Both the position numbers and the translations under genes were made by a program. A model generated the notes under the pieces. That model saw only the letters and a list, made by a program, of their open reading frames with translations. It made no database searches and was not told the origin of the DNA. Positions 4,431 through 35,736 of a stretch of 62,712 bases of DNA are shown piece after piece. Source of the stretch: a virus; the IMG/VR virus record IMGVR_UViG_3300047477_000098, positions 1-62,712 of that record; one strand, given 5' to 3'. Every line of letters begins with the position of its first letter. Positions within the stretch are counted from its first letter, which is position 1.

Positions 4431-5351
4431 ATGCACTGTGTTTATAAAATAACTTTTATTGAAAGAGAAAGACAGAATATCTATCCATGTTACTACATTG
4501 GATCAAAAGGTAATGTGGATGTTCGTGATGGTGTGATGTATAGAGTTGGTAGAAAGAAACCTTATTGGGGAAGCCCGTCAGATAAGTCTTATCCAGAAGC
4601 ACTTAAAGAACCAAAGAAAATGGAAGTACTGAAATACTTTGAAGATTACACTGAATGTTTGTCATATGAACGTGCTGTTCATATTGAAAATGATGTGATA
4701 ATAAATCCAAAATATTTTAATAAGAATTATGCTGTAGAAGGAACATATAGCCATCCAGATTACGGATCATTTAAACATAATGAAACTGGTAAGACTATTA
4801 GACTGCCATTAGATCACGCAATGGTTTTAAATGGAACTTATGTTGGTTCTACTAAAGGTGTTCATCAAACAGAAAAGTGTAAAGAGAAGAAGAAACGATT
4901 TGGTAAAGATAATCATTTTTATGGAAAAGAGCATACTACAGAATCTAAGAAAAAAATTGTTGATGGTCAAAATGAATGGAAAACAAAGAATCCAGAAGCG
5001 TATGCTGAACATATAGAAAATGTTAGGGCTCATATGACCAGAGTCAGTCGAGGAGTTCCAAAATCAGAAGACCATAAGAATAAAATTGGCCGTAAAGGTA
5101 TGGCGATGATTAAGAATATTGAGACTGGTGAAGTTAAAAGATTGTATATGACTTCTGATGAGTATATTAATAGAGATAAGAAACTTTGGAAAACACCTTA
5201 TCAAATTTCATGTGATAATGGTACTGTTCCAAAGGTAAAATGTGATCATTGTGGGAATATGTTCAATAGTGCCATGCACACCAGATGGCATGGAGATAAC
5301 TGTAAGATGAAGCCAAAAGATTCATCCAAGTTAATAGACATAATAGAATAA
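4431..5351 (+). CDS. GIY-YIG homing endonuclease with NUMOD3-type repeats
   Basis: Free-standing mobile endonuclease. The N-terminus has the GIY-YIG pattern (CVYKITF, then CYYIGSKGN). The middle carries two NUMOD3-like DNA-binding modules (GKDNHFYGKEHTTESKKKI around residues 163-181, and GVPKSEDHKNKIG around 204-216). The C-terminus has a C2HC finger (CDHCGNMFNS then WHGDNC). These are the parts of T4 Seg-type enzymes, which nick or cut a site in related phages and spread their own gene. It sits alone between uvsX and the helicase operon, after a terminator and before a promoter, as expected for an inserted mobile gene. AAGG at 4420-4423 serves as ribosome-binding site. Confidence 0.88.
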   Translation: MHCVYKITFIERERQNIYPCYYIGSKGNVDVRDGVMYRVGRKKPYWGSPSDKSYPEALKEPKKMEVLKYFEDYTECLSYERAVHIENDVIINPKYFNKNYAVEGTYSHPDYGSFKHNETGKTIRLPLDHAMVLNGTYVGSTKGVHQTEKCKEKKKRFGKDNHFYGKEHTTESKKKIVDGQNEWKTKNPEAYAEHIENVRAHMTRVSRGVPKSEDHKNKIGRKGMAMIKNIETGEVKRLYMTSDEYINRDKKLWKTPYQISCDNGTVPKVKCDHCGNMFNSAMHTRWHGDNCKMKPKDSSKLIDIIE

Positions 5352-7779: not shown

Positions 7780-8646
7780 ATGGCACGTAAAATTGATTGG
7801 AACGCAGTAGCTAATGAGATGAAGACTTTTGATAAGAAAGGTGCAGGACATGGCGATAGAGCAGTTGATGTAAATCTATTCCAGCCTAAGCTTAAAGAAG
7901 ATGGAACCTATGATGCAATCATCCGTTTCCTCCCAGCACCTGATATGGATATTCCATATGCTATCGTTTATAACCATGGATATCAGGCACCGTCTGGTAA
8001 GTGGGTTATTGAGAACTGTCCTAAATCCATTAATAAGAAATGTCCAGTATGTGATTCCGCATCCAAGATATGGGCTTCCGGAGATGAAGAGTCTGCTCGT
8101 CGTAGATTCAAGAAGTTCTCCGCATACTCAAACATCCTTGTAGTGCGTGATCCACAGAATCCAGAGAATGAAGGTAAAGTGTTTATCTTCCGTTATGGTA
8201 AGAAGTTGTTTGAAGTCATCCGTAACAAGATGGTTCCGCCTTCTACTCTTGACGAACCGTTGATGGTGTTCGACTATGATGAAGGAGCTAACTTCAAGCT
8301 CAAGATCCGTAGCAAGATTATCAATGATGCAAAGGGTAACAAGAAGCCTGTTCCGAACTATGATTCGTCAGAGTTCACCCAGCAGTCCACACTTGACGAG
8401 GCTCTCATTGAGGAAATCGAATCCCTCTTGATCCCTATCAAGCCTTACATCTCTGAAGACAAGTTCTTGAGCTTCTCCGAGCTTGAGAAGAAAGTTGCCG
8501 CTGGTGACGGCGTTGCAACAGCAGATAATGAGTCTTACACTACACCGGAAGCACCTGTCCAAAAGGCAGCAGCTCCGGCAAAGAAAGCCGCATCTTCTGC
8601 AGCATCTGACGAAGATTTCTTCGCAAGACTCCGTTCCGGAGGATAA
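7780..8646 (+). CDS. 32: Single-stranded DNA-binding protein (T4 gp32-like)
   Basis: Coats ssDNA at the fork and recruits other replication proteins. A zinc site is visible: H66, C80, C88 and C91 (VYNHGY, ENCPKS, KKCPVCDS), matching the T4 gp32 H-C-C-C arrangement. The first 20 residues (MARKIDWNAVANEMKTFDKK) form the N-terminal cooperativity segment; the C-terminus is an Ala/Lys linker followed by SDEDFFARLRSGG, which is less acidic than the T4 tail. Length 288 against 301 in T4. AGGAG at 7767-7771 precedes the ATG. Codon choice here is richer in C-ending codons than in the neighbours, consistent with high expression. Confidence 0.93.
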   Translation: MARKIDWNAVANEMKTFDKKGAGHGDRAVDVNLFQPKLKEDGTYDAIIRFLPAPDMDIPYAIVYNHGYQAPSGKWVIENCPKSINKKCPVCDSASKIWASGDEESARRRFKKFSAYSNILVVRDPQNPENEGKVFIFRYGKKLFEVIRNKMVPPSTLDEPLMVFDYDEGANFKLKIRSKIINDAKGNKKPVPNYDSSEFTQQSTLDEALIEEIESLLIPIKPYISEDKFLSFSELEKKVAAGDGVATADNESYTTPEAPVQKAAAPAKKAASSAASDEDFFARLRSGG

Positions 8647-20386: not shown

Positions 20387-22837
20387 ATGTATAGTAGAGA
20401 AGAGGCTGTTGCCGCAAGCCTAGTTTATTTCGACGGCGATAATTTGGCCGCAAATGTGTTTGTTGATAAGTATGCTCTGAAAGATAATGACGGAAATATT
20501 CTGGAAGATACTCCAGATAAGATGCATGATAGACTTGCCAAAGAGTTCGCAAGGATTGAACAAAAGTATCCAAATCCTCTCTCCGAAGCAGAGATACTTC
20601 ATTCAATTAAAAATTTCAAGTATATTGTTCCACAAGGCTCTCCGATGGAAGGCATTGGAAACAACCATAGAGTTACTAGCTTATCTAATTGCTATGTTAT
20701 TCCTTCGCCAGAAGATTCTTACGGTGGTATATTTAAAGCGGACCAGCAAGAAGCTCAGTTGATGAAGAGACGCGGTGGTGTTGGAATGGATATTTCAAAC
20801 ATTCGTCCTAAGGGAATGTCTACCAATAATGCAGCAAAGACTACAGACGGTATAGCAGTGTTTATGGATAGGTTCTCAAACACTTGTCGTGAAGTCGCAC
20901 AGAACGGTAGACGCGGCGCCTTGATGTTAACTATTGATTGCCGACACCCAGAAGTGGAAACATTCATCAATATTAAACGAGATAAGACCAGAGTAACTGG
21001 AGCCAATATCTCAGTTAAGATGAGTGATGACTTTATGGAAGCTGTTAAGAACGATACAACATATCAACAGAAGTGGCCAATCAATTCTCCAAACCCTTCT
21101 ATTGTTAGAGATGTCAACGCAAGAGAAATTTGGGAACAGATAATTGATGCAGCATGGACATCTGCCGAACCAGGAATATTGTTTTGGGATAACGCAATAA
21201 AGAATACTCCATCCGATATCTACACAGAAGAAGGATTCGGTAGTGTGTCAACTAATCCCTGCGGTGAAATTATTCTCAGTCCTTCGGACAGCTGTCGCCT
21301 CATATCACTCAACCTTCTATCGTTCGTGATGAACCCATTCACTGAAAAGGCACAATTTGATTATATCGGATTCAAGTCTTATGTCAAAATGGCTCAGCGT
21401 TTGATGGATGATATGATTGATCTTGAGTTGGAAAAATTAGATGCCATTCTTAATAAAATTGATGCTGATAATGAACCAGAATCCGTTAAGAGAGAAGAGA
21501 AAGAGTTGTGGATCTCAATCAGAGAAGCTTGTCTAAATGGACGTAGAACTGGATTGGGAATCACTGCACTTGGTGATACTATAGCTGCACTTGGAATCAT
21601 ATACGGATCTGCTGAGTCAATAGAGACTACTGAGAGCATCTACAAGACCTTGGCTCTTGGTGCACATGAATCATCTATCGACATGGCAGAAGAGCGTGGA
21701 TCGTTTCCAGTCTTTAATTACGACAAAGAAAAGTCCCATGAGTATCTTTCAAGAGTCATCTGTGAACTTGGACCAGAATATGTTTTGAAGTGGAGGAAGT
21801 TCGGTCGTAGAAATATCGCACTGACCACAACAGCTCCTACAGGAACTGTTTCCTTAATGACACAAACAACCTCTGGAATTGAGCCATGTTTCCAGCCGGT
21901 CTATAAGCGCCGTAAGAAAATTCTTTCTGGCAGCACTGATAGAGTGGATCATATTGATGTGAACGGCGATAAGTGGACTGAGTTTGAAGTTTGTCATCAT
22001 CAGTTCTCCGAGTGGAGAAAGATTTCAGGTAAGACTAATGTTGAAGATTCTCCATACTACAAGGCAACTGCTAATGATGTTGATTGGTCTGCAAGCGTTG
22101 AGCTACAAGCTGTCGCACAAAAGTGGATTGACCATAGCATAAGCAAGACTTGTAATCTTCCAAACTCTGCCACCAAAGAATTAGTGTCAGAGATATATAT
22201 GAAGGCTTGGGAAGTTGGATGCAAGGGTTTCACAATCTATCGTGACGGATGCAGAGATGGAGTTCTTCTAACTGGATCAGAAGAGAAGAAGTCTACATTC
22301 GAGACCAAGGACGCACCTAAGAGACCAGATATTCTTTCTTGCGGAATCAATCAAGTCAAGATTAAGAATGATAGCTGGACTGTTCTTGTTGGATTGATGG
22401 AAGATAAACCTTATGAGATTTTTGCTGGACTATCCAAGTTTGTTTCTATTCCAAAGTCTCTTACAAAGGGTCAGTTAATTAAGACTAAGATTAAGGGAAG
22501 TAAGAAATCCTCTTATGACCTGAGACTTGGAGAGAGTGATGATTCAGTAGTTATCAAAGATATTGGAAAGGTGTTTGAGAATCCAACCGAGGGTGAGTTC
22601 ACAAGAATGATCTCCCTAACTCTTCGTCATGGTGCACCAATCCAATATGTTGTCGAACAACTACAGAAGGATGAAGAGAGTGATATGTATTCATTCTCAA
22701 AGGTCATCGCAAGAGTATTGAAAAAGTATATTCCTGAAGGTGCAGTTACAAGCGAGACTTGCCCAAGCTGTGGATCAAAGATTGTTTACATTGAAGGATG
22801 TAAGCAGTGTCAAAATTGTGCTTGGAGTAAATGTTAA
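20387..22837 (+). CDS. nrdJ: Ribonucleotide reductase, class II (B12-dependent)
   Basis: 816 residues. Reduces ribonucleotides using adenosylcobalamin. Seen: the substrate/active-site segment SNCYVIPSPEDS, EPGILFWDNAIKN, STNPCGEIILSPSDSC, and the TTAPTGTVSLM loop near the second half; the C-terminus ends in a zinc ribbon, CPSCGSK followed by CKQCQNCAWSKC, typical of NrdJ and acting in thiol exchange. No NrdB partner is present, in line with class II. ATG 20387 is preferred because GGAG (20377-20380) lies 6 nt before it; ATG 20375 overlaps the gp4 stop. T4 itself uses class I, so this is a clear difference. Confidence 0.92.
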   Translation: MYSREEAVAASLVYFDGDNLAANVFVDKYALKDNDGNILEDTPDKMHDRLAKEFARIEQKYPNPLSEAEILHSIKNFKYIVPQGSPMEGIGNNHRVTSLSNCYVIPSPEDSYGGIFKADQQEAQLMKRRGGVGMDISNIRPKGMSTNNAAKTTDGIAVFMDRFSNTCREVAQNGRRGALMLTIDCRHPEVETFINIKRDKTRVTGANISVKMSDDFMEAVKNDTTYQQKWPINSPNPSIVRDVNAREIWEQIIDAAWTSAEPGILFWDNAIKNTPSDIYTEEGFGSVSTNPCGEIILSPSDSCRLISLNLLSFVMNPFTEKAQFDYIGFKSYVKMAQRLMDDMIDLELEKLDAILNKIDADNEPESVKREEKELWISIREACLNGRRTGLGITALGDTIAALGIIYGSAESIETTESIYKTLALGAHESSIDMAEERGSFPVFNYDKEKSHEYLSRVICELGPEYVLKWRKFGRRNIALTTTAPTGTVSLMTQTTSGIEPCFQPVYKRRKKILSGSTDRVDHIDVNGDKWTEFEVCHHQFSEWRKISGKTNVEDSPYYKATANDVDWSASVELQAVAQKWIDHSISKTCNLPNSATKELVSEIYMKAWEVGCKGFTIYRDGCRDGVLLTGSEEKKSTFETKDAPKRPDILSCGINQVKIKNDSWTVLVGLMEDKPYEIFAGLSKFVSIPKSLTKGQLIKTKIKGSKKSSYDLRLGESDDSVVIKDIGKVFENPTEGEFTRMISLTLRHGAPIQYVVEQLQKDEESDMYSFSKVIARVLKKYIPEGAVTSETCPSCGSKIVYIEGCKQCQNCAWSKC

Positions 22838-23871
22838 AGTGTGAACTGTGTTCCGAAATCTTTGAAAATAATAGGGGTGGACAATTAACATCACATCTTA
22901 GGAAATGTCATTCCATATCATTAGAAGAATACAAAATAAAAGTGTTTCATAATGATGTGGTTCCTAAATGTGGTTGTGGATGCGGCAGTGCCGCCCCTTT
23001 TGTTAGGGGTGAGTTTAAAGATTATATTTATGAACACAAATCCCAAAAAAATAAGATTGATATGTATTTAAAGCTCAACGGTCATCCTAAATGTTTAACT
23101 TGTGGTGCTGAGACTCGTTTTAATTATCGCGGTGGCATAGTTAAATATTGTTCAACAAAATGTATTCCTAGAATTGTTAAACAAAAGAACATGACTCATG
23201 GATTCTGTAATCCATTGGTTCAGGAAAAGATACGACAGAATACAATTATTAAATATGGTGTGGATAATATTTCTAAAACTCAAGTCATTAAAGATAAAAT
23301 ATCTGAACTATCTAAAGGTAAAGTTAGATACTACCCAACAACTGAACATAGACAAAAAATGTCTAATTTTATGATTGATATGTGGAAGAATCAAGATTAT
23401 AAGATTTCGCAGTGTGAGTTGATAAAAAAATCAACAAATACTGTAAATGAGAAACTCCGACGTAGGAATTTGGCAATATCAAGAATGGTTGATGGTGCTG
23501 TTCCATTCAAAGGAAAATCATCAAAACTGCATATTAAAATTAGAGAATATTTAAATCTGTCTGATCTTGGATTTGTATCGGAATATAATATTGGTCCATA
23601 TATTGTTGATGAAATTAACACAGAATTAGGAATCGTTATTGAAATTAATGGAGACTATGTGCACGCAAATCCAAATAAGTATAGTGCTGAAAGTTTAATA
23701 AGACTACGAGGAACTGCATATATGTCTATTGAAAAATGGAAAAATGACGAAGTTCGTACAAATTTCTTGGTTGATTGTGGTTATTGTGTTTTTGTTATTT
23801 GGGAAAGCGATGACCTTGATATAGTTAAAAAAACATTATTGGATTTGGTGTATAGAAGTTATGACAGCTGA
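22831..23871 (+). CDS. Vsr-like (EDxHD) homing endonuclease with zinc fingers
   Basis: 346 residues. The C-terminal nuclease part reads IVIEINGDYVHANPNKY, then CGYCVFVIWESD, as in Vsr/EDxHD homing enzymes where E, D and H bind metal. The N-terminal half has Cys-rich finger segments (KCELCSEIF, KCGCGCGSA, KCLTCGAET, YCSTKC) and an NUMOD-like middle (YPTTEHRQKMSNFM). It begins 7 nt inside the last codons of nrdJ, so it arrived as a mobile gene placed exactly at the end of that conserved gene. Its host target is probably nrdJ of related phages. Confidence 0.8.
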   Translation: MLKCELCSEIFENNRGGQLTSHLRKCHSISLEEYKIKVFHNDVVPKCGCGCGSAAPFVRGEFKDYIYEHKSQKNKIDMYLKLNGHPKCLTCGAETRFNYRGGIVKYCSTKCIPRIVKQKNMTHGFCNPLVQEKIRQNTIIKYGVDNISKTQVIKDKISELSKGKVRYYPTTEHRQKMSNFMIDMWKNQDYKISQCELIKKSTNTVNEKLRRRNLAISRMVDGAVPFKGKSSKLHIKIREYLNLSDLGFVSEYNIGPYIVDEINTELGIVIEINGDYVHANPNKYSAESLIRLRGTAYMSIEKWKNDEVRTNFLVDCGYCVFVIWESDDLDIVKKTLLDLVYRSYDS

Positions 23872-24136
23872 AAATGCCCCTATTTTAATTGATATGGACA
23901 ATAATATGTTCCGTACTCCAGAATCAATGCCGTGTAAAATATGTGGTGGAATATTAACAACGCATATAAAACGCGGAAGAATTATTGGAGTGTGTGTAAA
24001 TCAACATGTTCGGTGTGAATCTAAAAGTTATAGATCACCAACAGTTTTAAAAAAAGATCAGAGGAATGATATAAACCTCTATTGGATGCTAGCAGCCTAC
24101 ATTTACGTTGTGGAAAAATGGAATGCAGATAATTAA
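23861..24136 (+). CDS. Small Cys-rich hypothetical protein
   Basis: 91 residues overlapping the endonuclease end by 11 nt. CKICGG and later CVNQHVRC may bind one zinc. The C-terminus is INLYWMLAAYIYVVEKW. No family recognised. Confidence 0.55.
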   Translation: MTAENAPILIDMDNNMFRTPESMPCKICGGILTTHIKRGRIIGVCVNQHVRCESKSYRSPTVLKKDQRNDINLYWMLAAYIYVVEKWNADN

Positions 24137-24566
24137 AAAAGATATAACTACAGTTACTAAAGGAATAATAGCACATCAAGTAAACTGTACCAATCATATT
24201 GGTAGCGGGGTTGCTAAAGCTATAATAAACAAGTGGCCAATTGTAAAAACAGCATATCATGAATGGTGTTCAAATTACAAAAACTTATCCGACATGTTGG
24301 GCAAAGTTCAATTGATTGAAGTTGAGCCTGGACTATATGTTGCAAACTGTTTTGCACAACTTGATAAGGGTTATGATGGAAAAAAGTACACTGATTATAA
24401 TGCCTTAGCTGACACTTTCCATGATCTTGTATTGCTTTCTGGTGGGAATAAGATACAAGTTTATGTTCCTTATAGAATTGGATGTGGATTAGCTGGTGGA
24501 GACTGGAATGTGGTTGAAAGAATAATTGATGTTAGCCTACCAGGAGTAATCGCGTGCGAAATATAA
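24123..24566 (+). CDS. Macro-domain protein (ADP-ribose binding/hydrolysis)
   Basis: 147 residues from ATG 24123; the TTG at 24108 is less likely. Macro-domain landmarks: IIAHQVNCTNHIGSGVAKAI (ADP-ribose loop 1), VANCFAQ, then VYVPYRIGCGLAGGDW (loop 2). Such domains bind or remove ADP-ribose and its derivatives, including 1''-phosphate forms made during RNA repair. In a phage it could undo host ADP-ribosylation or process tRNA-repair by-products; RlaP-like, CCA-adding-type and kinase genes elsewhere in the window support the latter as inference. Confidence 0.85.
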   Translation: MQIIKKDITTVTKGIIAHQVNCTNHIGSGVAKAIINKWPIVKTAYHEWCSNYKNLSDMLGKVQLIEVEPGLYVANCFAQLDKGYDGKKYTDYNALADTFHDLVLLSGGNKIQVYVPYRIGCGLAGGDWNVVERIIDVSLPGVIACEI

Positions 24567-24994
24567 CCAATATAGAACATGGAATTATACTTAACCTCGT
24601 GTCATATGACAGGGTTTATGTGGACGATGTTGTAACATTTGATATTCTGAAAGCCTTTCCTAACACTAAGGGTCGATGGGAATTATCAATACAAAATTGC
24701 AGGGACCTACAATGGGTCACACCATATACATTGCAAGGTACAGCTCACAGCCATTGGGAAAAGTATGGTCACTTAATGGTATACAATTGTTTCGTTAAGG
24801 AATTGGTTGGGAAAAGTTATCAAATTAACTCCGAGAATTTGAAAAAAGTTTTGACGAATATTCGCAATTGTTGGCCCACATTTATCAATAATTTTACAAA
24901 CACTCCAGAAGTCTTTATATCAAAAGATTATTCTTCACAGTTCTGTCTATTGGATGTTATCGGAAATACTTGGCCAGAGATACGAGTTGTATGA
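24554..24994 (+). CDS. Hypothetical protein
   Basis: 146 residues, GTG start with CAGGAG at 24541-24546. It overlaps the macro-domain gene by 13 nt. Rich in aromatic residues (WELSIQNCRDLQW); no family recognised. Confidence 0.6.
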   Translation: MRNITNIEHGIILNLVSYDRVYVDDVVTFDILKAFPNTKGRWELSIQNCRDLQWVTPYTLQGTAHSHWEKYGHLMVYNCFVKELVGKSYQINSENLKKVLTNIRNCWPTFINNFTNTPEVFISKDYSSQFCLLDVIGNTWPEIRVV

Positions 24995-25338
24995 CCGTTC
25001 AAGATTTCATAGATATGGTAAGAGAATATCATATACCAATGGATGCGGTGCTTGATTCTGTAGATACGATAATATATTCACCAAATGACACTGCTTATGA
25101 GATAGCATATGATGTCAGTAAAGGTAATGTTAATATACGATCAGATAAACCGATTGTTCAAATATTCCAAACTGATCTTGAAGCTATTGTAAATGATATT
25201 CCAGATATGTCATCTGAGACAGAATACTATAAAGCTGTTACTGACAAAGTCACTGTAACAGCTGACTCAAATTATTGGAAAGCCCGAGTCGATAGAACTA
25301 TAAGGGCACATATAAAAGGTAGAATTGATGAGACCTAA
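24991..25338 (+). CDS. Hypothetical protein
   Basis: 115 residues from ATG 24991, ATGA-coupled to the gene before. Acidic and without recognised motifs; the start TVQDFIDMVREYHIPMDAVL looks helical. Confidence 0.6.
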   Translation: MTVQDFIDMVREYHIPMDAVLDSVDTIIYSPNDTAYEIAYDVSKGNVNIRSDKPIVQIFQTDLEAIVNDIPDMSSETEYYKAVTDKVTVTADSNYWKARVDRTIRAHIKGRIDET

Positions 25339-25966
25339 AAGAGATTGGAGTAAGGTTGCTTCTCAAATGAAGGACCAAGATAAGAAAGAAGAAAGTGAAC
25401 GGTTGGTAAACAATACAGTATCTGAACATGATCCTATGTTGTTAACTATGCCCCCTCTGGTAAAGCCGCTACATGGAACAGCTCCGAGAATGATAATGGG
25501 TGAATCTTGGTGGAATGATACTAGACAAGAGGTTTATAAAAAGAATAAGTTCCATTGTGTAGCGTGTGGTGTACATAAGTCAAATGCTAAAATCCATCAA
25601 TGGCTTGAAGCGCATGAATACTACGAAGTGGATTATGTTAACACCAAATACGCACTGAAGGATATCATCCCATTGTGTCATTGTTGCCACGCATTTATCC
25701 ACTATCAAAGATCAACTGCTATGTTAAATGCTGGTAAACTATCCAAAAAGAACTTTGATATTATCATGGATCATGGCAAAGAAGTTCTCTCAAGAATTGG
25801 TGTAGATAAATCAGAAATCATCCTACCAGAAGATCACTTCCCAGAAACAAATGGTAAGTGGGGTGATTGGTATTTTGAATTTGAAGGTGTGAAACATTAT
25901 TCCAAGTTTGAAAATTATGACGCATGGAATGAGTTTTATACAAACCAGAATAGCAAACAAGACTAA
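25328..25966 (+). CDS. HNH-like zinc protein with gp32-like N-terminus
   Basis: 212 residues from ATG 25328 (a TTG one codon earlier is unlikely). Residues 1-20, MRPKRDWSKVASQMKDQDKK, match gp32 of this phage (gene at 7780) at 11 of 20 positions without gaps. Residues about 75-130 look like a treble-clef HNH module: FHCVACG, WLEAHEYYEVDY, IIPLCHCCHAFIH. The C-terminal 60 residues are acidic and aromatic. I infer a nuclease or DNA-binding protein that may join gp32-coated DNA through the shared N-peptide. A free-standing homing HNH is an alternative. Confidence 0.62.
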   Translation: MRPKRDWSKVASQMKDQDKKEESERLVNNTVSEHDPMLLTMPPLVKPLHGTAPRMIMGESWWNDTRQEVYKKNKFHCVACGVHKSNAKIHQWLEAHEYYEVDYVNTKYALKDIIPLCHCCHAFIHYQRSTAMLNAGKLSKKNFDIIMDHGKEVLSRIGVDKSEIILPEDHFPETNGKWGDWYFEFEGVKHYSKFENYDAWNEFYTNQNSKQD

Positions 25967-31378: not shown

Positions 31379-31897
31379 ATGAGAACACTAATGGATAATA
31401 ACACTCTGGTCATCGAACCAGAAAAACACGGCTTCACAAAAGAAGCTGTAGTAATTACAGCTAAGGGTAAACGATCAATTCAAGATGTCCAAAGAGGTGA
31501 CTTTGTGTTGACTCACAAAAACCGCTTTAAGAAGGTCTACAAGACTTCTAAGGACATCAACACGACTACAGTTCATACCATTCGCGCAGTCGGCTTAGAA
31601 CCCCTCCAAACGACAGCTGGACAGATGTTCTTGACCAAGAAGTCTATTGTGGATTCTCCAGCTTGGGTTGAAGCTAGAAATATTGAAACTGATTGGTATA
31701 TCGGTGTGCCTGATAAGGTTGACTTTGAATTAGTTGATCCGAAAGCTTACATCGACCAAATGATTTGGATTAAAGTTAAGTATAGTAAAGGATCTGATAA
31801 GAATCATTCTACAACTTATACTTTATCTGTTGAAGATGATGAATCCTTTATAGTCAATTGCTATCCAGCATTTACGGAGGACACATGGAAGAAATAA
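31379..31897 (+). CDS. Free-standing Hint (intein-like) domain without catalytic residues
   Basis: 172 residues that follow intein block order. Block A-like: GFTKEAVVITAKGKRSIQDV then QRGDFVLT; expected Cys1 is Gly. Block B-like: LQTTAGQMFLTKK; the usual TxxH His is Gly. Block F-like: YTLSVEDDESFIVN; block G-like CYPAFTED lacks the terminal His-Asn and +1 nucleophile. So the fold seems kept while splicing and cleavage residues are gone. It overlaps the methyltransferase start by 13 nt, implying a joint role or an intein remnant. ATG 31391 is an alternative start. Confidence 0.65.
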   Translation: MRTLMDNNTLVIEPEKHGFTKEAVVITAKGKRSIQDVQRGDFVLTHKNRFKKVYKTSKDINTTTVHTIRAVGLEPLQTTAGQMFLTKKSIVDSPAWVEARNIETDWYIGVPDKVDFELVDPKAYIDQMIWIKVKYSKGSDKNHSTTYTLSVEDDESFIVNCYPAFTEDTWKK

Positions 31898-34243: not shown

Positions 34244-34588
34244 ATGTCAAAGATTTTAGTTGTATCTGCTCCATCAGATGACCACCACGAAACTTGGGTG
34301 GTTGATAAGAAAGAAATGAATCATATCTACAAAATATTTGGTTGCAATAGATGGGAAGAGCTTGAGGATTGTGAAGTGGAAGAGCTTGGCGATTCCTTTG
34401 TTAAAAAGATCGGTAAGCGTCTTGGTAAAGAACCAACAGTTCTGGAAGATGTTTATGAATACTTTAAGCAGATAATTGCGGATGATAGCATTACACTTAC
34501 TCAGTTCTCACATGATGTAGTGGAATGTATCAATACTGATAGAGGTTCTTGGTCGTCACATGTTTGGGTTAAAACGAAAGGTAATTAA
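34244..34588 (+). CDS. Hypothetical protein
   Basis: 114 residues immediately after the asparagine-synthase-like stop. Acidic, with a helical middle (ELEDCEVEELGDSFVKKIGK). No family recognised. Probably co-transcribed with its neighbours. Confidence 0.6.
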   Translation: MSKILVVSAPSDDHHETWVVDKKEMNHIYKIFGCNRWEELEDCEVEELGDSFVKKIGKRLGKEPTVLEDVYEYFKQIIADDSITLTQFSHDVVECINTDRGSWSSHVWVKTKGN

Positions 34589-35736
34589 TGAAAATTGGAT
34601 TGGTTAGAGAGCAGAGTAATACTCCCGGAATGGGATCACTCTTTATAAATTACGATGGTGCAGCGAACATAGAGACTCCGGGATTTCGGGGTCTTTCTCA
34701 TCTGTGGGAGCATTGTGCTTGTCACTCTTATGACTCCTTACAAGAGAGACTAATGGCAGCTGGTATTGTAGCAAATGCTATGACCTCTGACCGGAATGTA
34801 GTTTTCTATTGGATGGGATTGGATGAGAAGATTGAAGAATTCCAGAAGGAATTGCTGGATCTAATCTACTACATTCCCACTAAGGAAGAGTTTGAGAATG
34901 AGAAGAAGATCGTTATGCAGGAGTATGAAGATTATGTCTCGAAGCAGAACTTCGTATTCTCCAACATCATGCGTAAGTATTTCGATTACTTCGGTCCTAT
35001 TGGCTACAGAGATGATATTGTGAATATCACTTATACAGACTTCCTATGTTTTGTAAATAAGAACTTCTCTATTCCAACATCTATTGTTCGCATTGGTAAT
35101 TCTGAAACCATTGTCGAACTTACTAAGGATATTCAGTTCCAGACTGCTGCTGATCCAATCCCTCTAAATGAGTTGGCAACAGGAATCCTGACACACGTTG
35201 AGAATCCTTCTAAGTTTCCAACATCAACTTTGATTGCGGACTGGGCAACATTCTTCACAGATGAACTGTCAGTACAAGATGTTAAGTTGATTAACGCACT
35301 GTTCTCAAAGGGGCTTAGTTCTCCATTCTATCAAGAGATTCGTGAGAAGCGCGGACTTGTATACCATTGTGGAACCGATATTGAATTGGTGGATGCAGAG
35401 ACTTACGTTTGGTTCTTCTATGCTGGATGTACCGAGATGTCTATGGTCGAAGTTCGTTCTGTAATGAAGGACATTGTCAGTAATTACAAAGACTATATAA
35501 CTACCGAAAGATTTGAATCAGTGGTTGAATTATATAGAAATAATGCGAAGATGTCAAAGATCGGGAATCATGGTCATTCTTACATTAACAAGTTTTTTGT
35601 TAATGAGACTGAGATCCTTGATGAAGAATATCTAAATGGATTAGATTATAATGAATTCCAAAAGAGCCTTGAGTTCTTCAAAAACTCTATGGAATTCCTA
35701 CATGAAGCGCATAATGGTCCGGAGCTTAGTATATGA
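34588..35736 (+). CDS. M16 (pitrilysin/MPP-type) metallopeptidase
   Basis: 382 residues. The inverted zinc motif HxxEH is present as GLSHLWEHCACH (H38, E41, H42) and the third ligand probably is E112 in KKIVMQEYEDY. The second, catalytically inert M16 half shows its usual signature SSPFYQEIREKRGLVYHCG. Family members clamp around short peptides and cleave them. Such a peptidase is rare in phages; possible substrates are peptides cut from prohead proteins or host-made ribosomal peptides, but nothing in the sequence decides. TAATG-coupled to the gene before. Confidence 0.87.
   Translation: MKIGLVREQSNTPGMGSLFINYDGAANIETPGFRGLSHLWEHCACHSYDSLQERLMAAGIVANAMTSDRNVVFYWMGLDEKIEEFQKELLDLIYYIPTKEEFENEKKIVMQEYEDYVSKQNFVFSNIMRKYFDYFGPIGYRDDIVNITYTDFLCFVNKNFSIPTSIVRIGNSETIVELTKDIQFQTAADPIPLNELATGILTHVENPSKFPTSTLIADWATFFTDELSVQDVKLINALFSKGLSSPFYQEIREKRGLVYHCGTDIELVDAETYVWFFYAGCTEMSMVEVRSVMKDIVSNYKDYITTERFESVVELYRNNAKMSKIGNHGHSYINKFFVNETEILDEEYLNGLDYNEFQKSLEFFKNSMEFLHEAHNGPELSI

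Follow-up and report, generated by a model that had tools for sequence, protein, structure and literature searches.

An HNH endonuclease-like protein with a gp32-type N-terminal arm encoded by a T4-like phage

The locus and the nuclease core

The analyzed window comprises 62,712 nucleotides and corresponds to positions 1 to 62,712 of the IMG/VR virus record IMGVR_UViG_3300047477_000098. The first 10 kb are T4-like and encode a B-family polymerase, a RecA/UvsX-type recombinase, a helicase, gp32, and a primase (the helicase and primase were recognized by eye). The gp32 gene (7780-8646, + strand) was identified by a PF08804 match (E=1.9e-32). A second gene, the subject of this study, extends on the + strand from an ATG at 25328 to a stop codon ending at 25966 and encodes a 212-aa HNH protein with the N-terminus MRPKRDWSKVASQMKDQDKK; its start overlaps the 3' end of the ORF at 24970-25338. 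The first-pass annotation had reported this ORF with the same start and N-terminal peptide, and both the coordinates and the translation agree. A Shine-Dalgarno-like motif precedes the annotated start codon, and none was found ahead of the in-frame codons for Met14 or Met37. The features are listed in Table 1.

Table 1. Positions of the features discussed (window coordinates unless a contig is named)
Feature	Position	Strand	Basis
Shine-Dalgarno-like AAAGG, upstream of the 25328 ATG	25315..25322	+	sequence
gp32-type N-arm of the HNH protein, residues 1-20, MRPKRDWSKVASQMKDQDKK	25328..25387	+	profile and alignment; AF2 helix from residue 7
Linker of the HNH protein, residues 21-34	25388..25429	+	not gp32-like; low pLDDT at 28-30
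HNH (bba-Me, zinc) core and C-terminal region, residues 35-212	25430..25963	+	phrog_5200, 47-row alignment, AF2
gp32 N-arm, residues 1-20, MARKIDWNAVANEMKTFDKK	7780..7839	+	alignment, profile; AF2 helix 7-20
gp32 core and C-terminal tail, proposed docking partner	7840..8646	+	PF08804, PDB 8gme/1gpc profile match, AF2
Candidate acceptor helix of gp32, residues 141-151	8200-8232	+	AF2; corresponds to T4 helix 141-152 (PMC11551737)
HNH and 88-aa proteins sharing an N-terminal peptide	L029:9908-10534 and L029:11117-11383		

Two further ORFs of the window resemble homing endonucleases or nucleases. A GIY-YIG-looking ORF of 306 aa (4431-5351; by eye, no Pfam match) lies between the UvsX-like recombinase and helicase genes and recalls T4 segA, which adjoins uvsX. 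A probable second homing endonuclease (22831-23871; phrog_3339, DUF559-like) follows the ribonucleotide reductase gene and overlaps its stop codon.

The part of the HNH protein beyond the N-terminal peptide had previously been taken for a zinc/HNH module, and this assignment is borne out. Residues 38-134 match the phrog_5200 'HNH endonuclease' profile (E=1.8e-19), and C77, C80, E94, H96, E97, C117, C120, H121, and H125 are invariant in the alignment of 47 homologues. From residue 35 onwards, the protein is like the phrog_5200 HNH proteins of Pseudomonas phage JG054 and Vibrio phage 209E38-1 (~31-45% identity), with which it shares the invariant C/H/E positions. The AF2 model displays strands and a helix in the bba-Me order, with pLDDT >90 for most of the core. 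Since the zinc and catalytic residues are invariant and the bba-Me order appears in a high-confidence model, DNA cleavage activity is considered likely. A fold search with the model yielded nothing at E<=0.001 (top PDB match T4 endonuclease VII, E=0.34), and defence-system and NCBIfam scans of the protein gave no convincing match. The possibility that the protein is itself a gp32 was discarded, as no PF08804 match indicating an OB-fold core was found. The neighbourhoods of its homologues contain polymerases, Sak4/RecT annealing proteins, DnaB, helicase, UvsX-like recombinases, and exonucleases; such a replication/recombination setting fits the docking proposed below and is also expected of homing enzymes targeting genes of this kind.

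Similarity of the N-terminal arm to gp32

The first-pass annotation had described the first 20 residues of the HNH protein as a copy of the gp32 N-terminus, with which the present comparisons concur. The two peptides are identical at 11 of 20 positions, gapless, and both begin at Met1. Without Met1, the pair has a BLOSUM62 score of 49, and the best other place in the six frames of the window reaches 30 (49,912 six-frame windows, mean -17, sd 8.9). A survey of 101 loci with gp32, most of them limited to the gp32 flanks, comprised 15,094 comparisons of gene starts; the pair came out at 52 and the runner-up at 35, and no other gene start was found to copy its own gp32. As the peptide was spotted by eye, the independent tests below weigh more than its raw BLOSUM62 score.

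For these tests, gp32 arms were taken from relatives with a common core: L002 (MAERRKFNWSAVAEQM), L003 (MNKRKFAIDWTKSTEKIKEQ), G014 (MNKQKFKIDWSKAMDKIREQ), G022 (MQKKKFKIDWGNTMNKIKDQ), and L248 (MARNIDWNAVASEMK). With a profile of the first four arms, from which this phage was excluded, the HNH arm ranked first among 59,828 six-frame windows (24.8 bits), followed by the phage's own gp32 (24.3 bits) and the next match at 12.7 bits. The five-arm profile applied to the window gave 30.4 for gp32, 27.9 for the HNH arm, and 12.1 for the following match. In leave-one-out searches of whole contigs, the true gp32 arms of G014 and G022 scored 28.2 and 26.5 (runners-up 16.7 and 15.1), values comparable to the five-arm score of the HNH arm, which therefore behaves like a genuine gp32 arm and fits the same profile as those of the phage's relatives. 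In the reverse search with the HNH arm as a query, gp32 was the top match in both of these whole ~250-kb phage contigs (43 vs 35 and 46 vs 39).

The AF2 models place the start of a helix at residue 7 in both gp32 and the HNH protein, with moderate pLDDT for the arm. When residues 7-20 are plotted on a helical wheel, positions 7, 10, 11, 14, and 18 make up one face and are all identical (5/5), compared with 3/9 of the other positions (P=0.028, post hoc); position 17, an outer position of the helix, is Phe in gp32 and Gln in the HNH protein, a difference that counts against docking. Past the arm, identity drops to 1/15 over residues 21-35, and as the linker is unlike gp32, the similarity stops at the border of the T4 N-terminal domain, residue 20 (PMC11551737). 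Where residues are identical, the two genes share 7/8 degenerate codons (expected 3.9, P=0.028), a hint of DNA copying over convergence. Like the B-domain of T4-type gp32 (LAST motif), the arm is N-terminal, ~20 aa long, and helical, and it is in register with T4 gp32 at L/V10, A11, and M14 (8gme alignment). Unlike T4 gp32, it is joined to a nuclease and not to an OB-fold core, and unlike the Lys-Ser/Thr pattern of the T4 LAST motif, this clade carries DW at positions 6-7.

A chance or convergent amphipathic basic helix unrelated to gp32 is very improbable and was rejected by the profile tests. Lys-rich helical peptides as short as 20 aa are indeed common, and the arm by itself, a query too short to be useful, gave no match in a raw tblastn against annotated phage records; against this stand the results with independent phages in the profile and reverse searches, the shared codons, the same register from Met1, and the lack of equal gp32-arm-profile matches elsewhere in the window or in two whole contigs. 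These results establish the arm as a gp32-type module, its homology to gp32 arms being nearly certain.

N-terminal extensions across the HNH family

Homologues of the HNH core were collected from two overlapping IMG/VR scans (42 and 49 loci), with 8 in genome contigs and 17 matching phage records. Their alignment with the protein in most cases sets in at residue ~35, with the motif RPELLxHPNIPKPLHG, which is also where the majority of them start, unlike the HNH protein of the window; the gp32-type arm is therefore an added module. None of the homologues was found to carry it, including those of three contigs that also match gp32 (L059/G014, L103/G022, and L098/G019, the gp32 match of G019 being partial). 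Thus, the arm represents a lineage-specific gain, and since the homologues of gp32-encoding phages lack it, it is not needed for the function of the family. Absence of the peptide from HNH homologues had been named as grounds for rejecting the earlier interpretation of docking on gp32-coated ssDNA, and it is what was observed. This refutes a family-wide role but not one in this protein, and the interpretation is partly supported: the true gp32-type N-arm and the intact HNH residues stand, but the arm is not conserved in the family. The non-conservation is compatible with acquisition in the lineage of this protein, as the arm lies outside the family core and an analogous addition occurs in another clade (see below).

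One case of a gp32-arm-bearing HNH protein is known so far. A scan of IMG/VR with DWxxVAxxMK recovered gp32s (L248, L281, L304, and L293, the last identical to gp32 of this phage) and scattered matches at other gene starts, with no HNH protein of the phrog_5200 family among them. A direct search of IMG/VR with the entire HNH protein found no close relative, and no relatives of the flanking genes, the downstream gene included, were found for an empty-site comparison of homing. In the HNH tree, the protein forms a long, unplaced branch (length 2.35), and decay or a change of function is therefore conceivable. Both ~250-kb contigs contain a similar small ORF (L224:18680, +, and L218:1182, -) with a C-terminal, faintly gp32-arm-like stretch (NKIDFQKLAQKMQ and TRVDFQKMMEKTK, respectively) and near-background scores.

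The arm could also be a relic, left by a past insertion of the HNH gene at or close to the beginning of a gene 32, the first 20 codons of which it would have retained as a translation start, with no docking involved. The 7/8 shared codons favour DNA copying over convergence, T4 homing endonucleases adjoin gene 32 (PMC2988022), with segG just upstream, and the arm is a one-off within the family. A relic is nevertheless rather unlikely: the hydrophobic face of the helix is fully retained although the DNA has diverged outside the identical residues, the copied stretch stops precisely at the B-domain border, the gp32 leader and ribosome site were not brought along, and the arm scores on par with real gp32 arms of other phages.

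A different borrowed peptide was observed in a second clade. Six siphophage-like contigs (L029, L032, L034, L035, L037, and L038) encode HNH proteins with another extension of 18-24 aa, e.g., MKENNNDWIDDLFEVKETEVE, and this DWIDE-type peptide also opens an 88-aa protein encoded on the same contig ~1.2 kb downstream of the HNH gene. Between the two genes lies one for a 187-aa protein of phrog_22961 (unknown function), which may be an annealing protein in what is probably an annealing operon. With leave-out profiles of the 88-aa proteins, the HNH N-terminus ranked second in 6/6 contigs, right behind the 88-aa protein itself, with 12.9-22.1 bits compared with at most 10.9 for the next best match there. 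No such gene start was found in six control contigs with an extension-less HNH protein, where the best chance score, inside a gene, was 12.4; L034 and L038 (12.9) are hence barely above background when taken alone, and the case rests on the 6/6 agreement. The peptide is absent from both the HNH and the 88-aa protein in L033, L050, and L060, and occurs on the 88-aa protein only in L030. The HNH tree separates L037 from the other five and places it among extension-less homologues, implying more than one gain or loss of the extension. For the other N-terminal extensions of HNH proteins (L044, L046, L066, and L100), no convincing partner copy was found. A general tendency of the HNH family to gain docking tags repeatedly, each copying the N-terminus of a DNA-metabolism protein of the same phage and targeting replication or recombination intermediates, is a tentative idea, with somewhat less than even prospects; in the gp32 case, such a tag would lead to a single acceptor at the cluster end.

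Proposed docking on gp32 and comparison with known systems

In T4, residues 1-20 of gp32 (B-domain) form an alpha-helix on helix 141-152 of the partner (PMC11551737), and the N-terminus is essential to cooperative binding (PMC12893549, PMC3016280). The contact is placed in core residues 228-253 instead by PMC12893549, and the exact acceptor surface is therefore still debated. Because the T4 segment binds the core of a partner gp32 and causes cooperativity (PMC11551737, PMC12893549), docking on gp32 is a natural reading of the borrowed arm, and by this analogy the nuclease rather likely docks there. According to the proposed mechanism, the HNH nuclease would have acquired the arm from gp32 of its own phage or of a relative. 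The arm would fold as an amphipathic helix and dock on the gp32 core at the site of a neighbouring gp32 arm, both the helix docking and the acceptor site being modelled on T4, and would tether the nuclease to gp32-coated single-stranded DNA. Having the arm without a gp32 core, the protein could only cap an exposed acceptor. Each gp32 cluster would offer one such acceptor, at one of its ends, beside a single-strand/double-strand junction, which would bring the nuclease to the edges of forks, gaps, or D-loops. Nicking at such edges could start homing, recombination, or branch processing. Both the cluster-end location and the cutting role of the protein are thus put forward as what we infer from these considerations.

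Alternatively, the arm might enable the protein to compete for the contacts between gp32 molecules and to break or cap the filaments, the HNH core serving mainly for DNA binding. An arm that lacks a gp32 core would by its nature compete with cooperative binding, and T4 UvsY is thought to act partly by lowering gp32 cooperativity (PMC3016280). Such a regulator is quite improbable, given that all catalytic and zinc positions, needless for a pure competitor, are retained and that competition with the very abundant gp32 would demand much protein.

A nuclease docked in this way has no published precedent that could be found in the open-access literature searched; the nearest are the Orf/DUF968-HNH fusions (lambda Orf family), in which an SSB-linked recombination family is likewise combined with a zinc HNH (PMC4118853). 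The link in these fusions is a folded ssDNA/SSB-binding domain, not an SSB-copied peptide, and their sequence is unrelated to the HNH protein of the window. The latter also resembles the free-standing homing endonucleases of T4 (mob/seg) in its HNH chemistry (mob), phage setting, start overlapping an upstream ORF, and modular extra domains. The known extra parts of the mob/seg enzymes, unlike the arm, bind target DNA, and no description of an SSB-docking arm was found for enzymes of this type.

SSB proteins recruit their partners by their own C-terminal tails (the gp32 A-domain, the bacterial SSB tip). A nuclease wearing an SSB self-assembly arm, if confirmed, would follow a different recruitment logic, with the filament end as the binding site, and the arm would be a portable tag with which enzymes could be positioned at the ends of gp32 clusters. 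It would offer mobile or recombination nucleases a simple route to replicating DNA without sequence recognition and would help explain how nicks made by HNH enzymes are converted into recombination. The case also illustrates how a self-assembly element of 20 residues can move between proteins.

Several other genes of the window were recorded. A few genes past the ribonucleotide reductase, a macro-domain-like protein (24129-24566) is encoded, with weak similarity to the DarG antitoxin (PADLOC E=2.8e-6). A 172-aa ORF (31379-31897) is flanked by a DHFR-like gene and by a gene for a C5 DNA methylase, the ORF of which overlaps it; its match to a Hint domain (PF13403) is weak and under the cut-off, and it could be an intein-like remnant. 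An insulinase-type (M16) peptidase gene is located at 34588-35736 of this T4-like phage and is, to our knowledge, unusual among phages.
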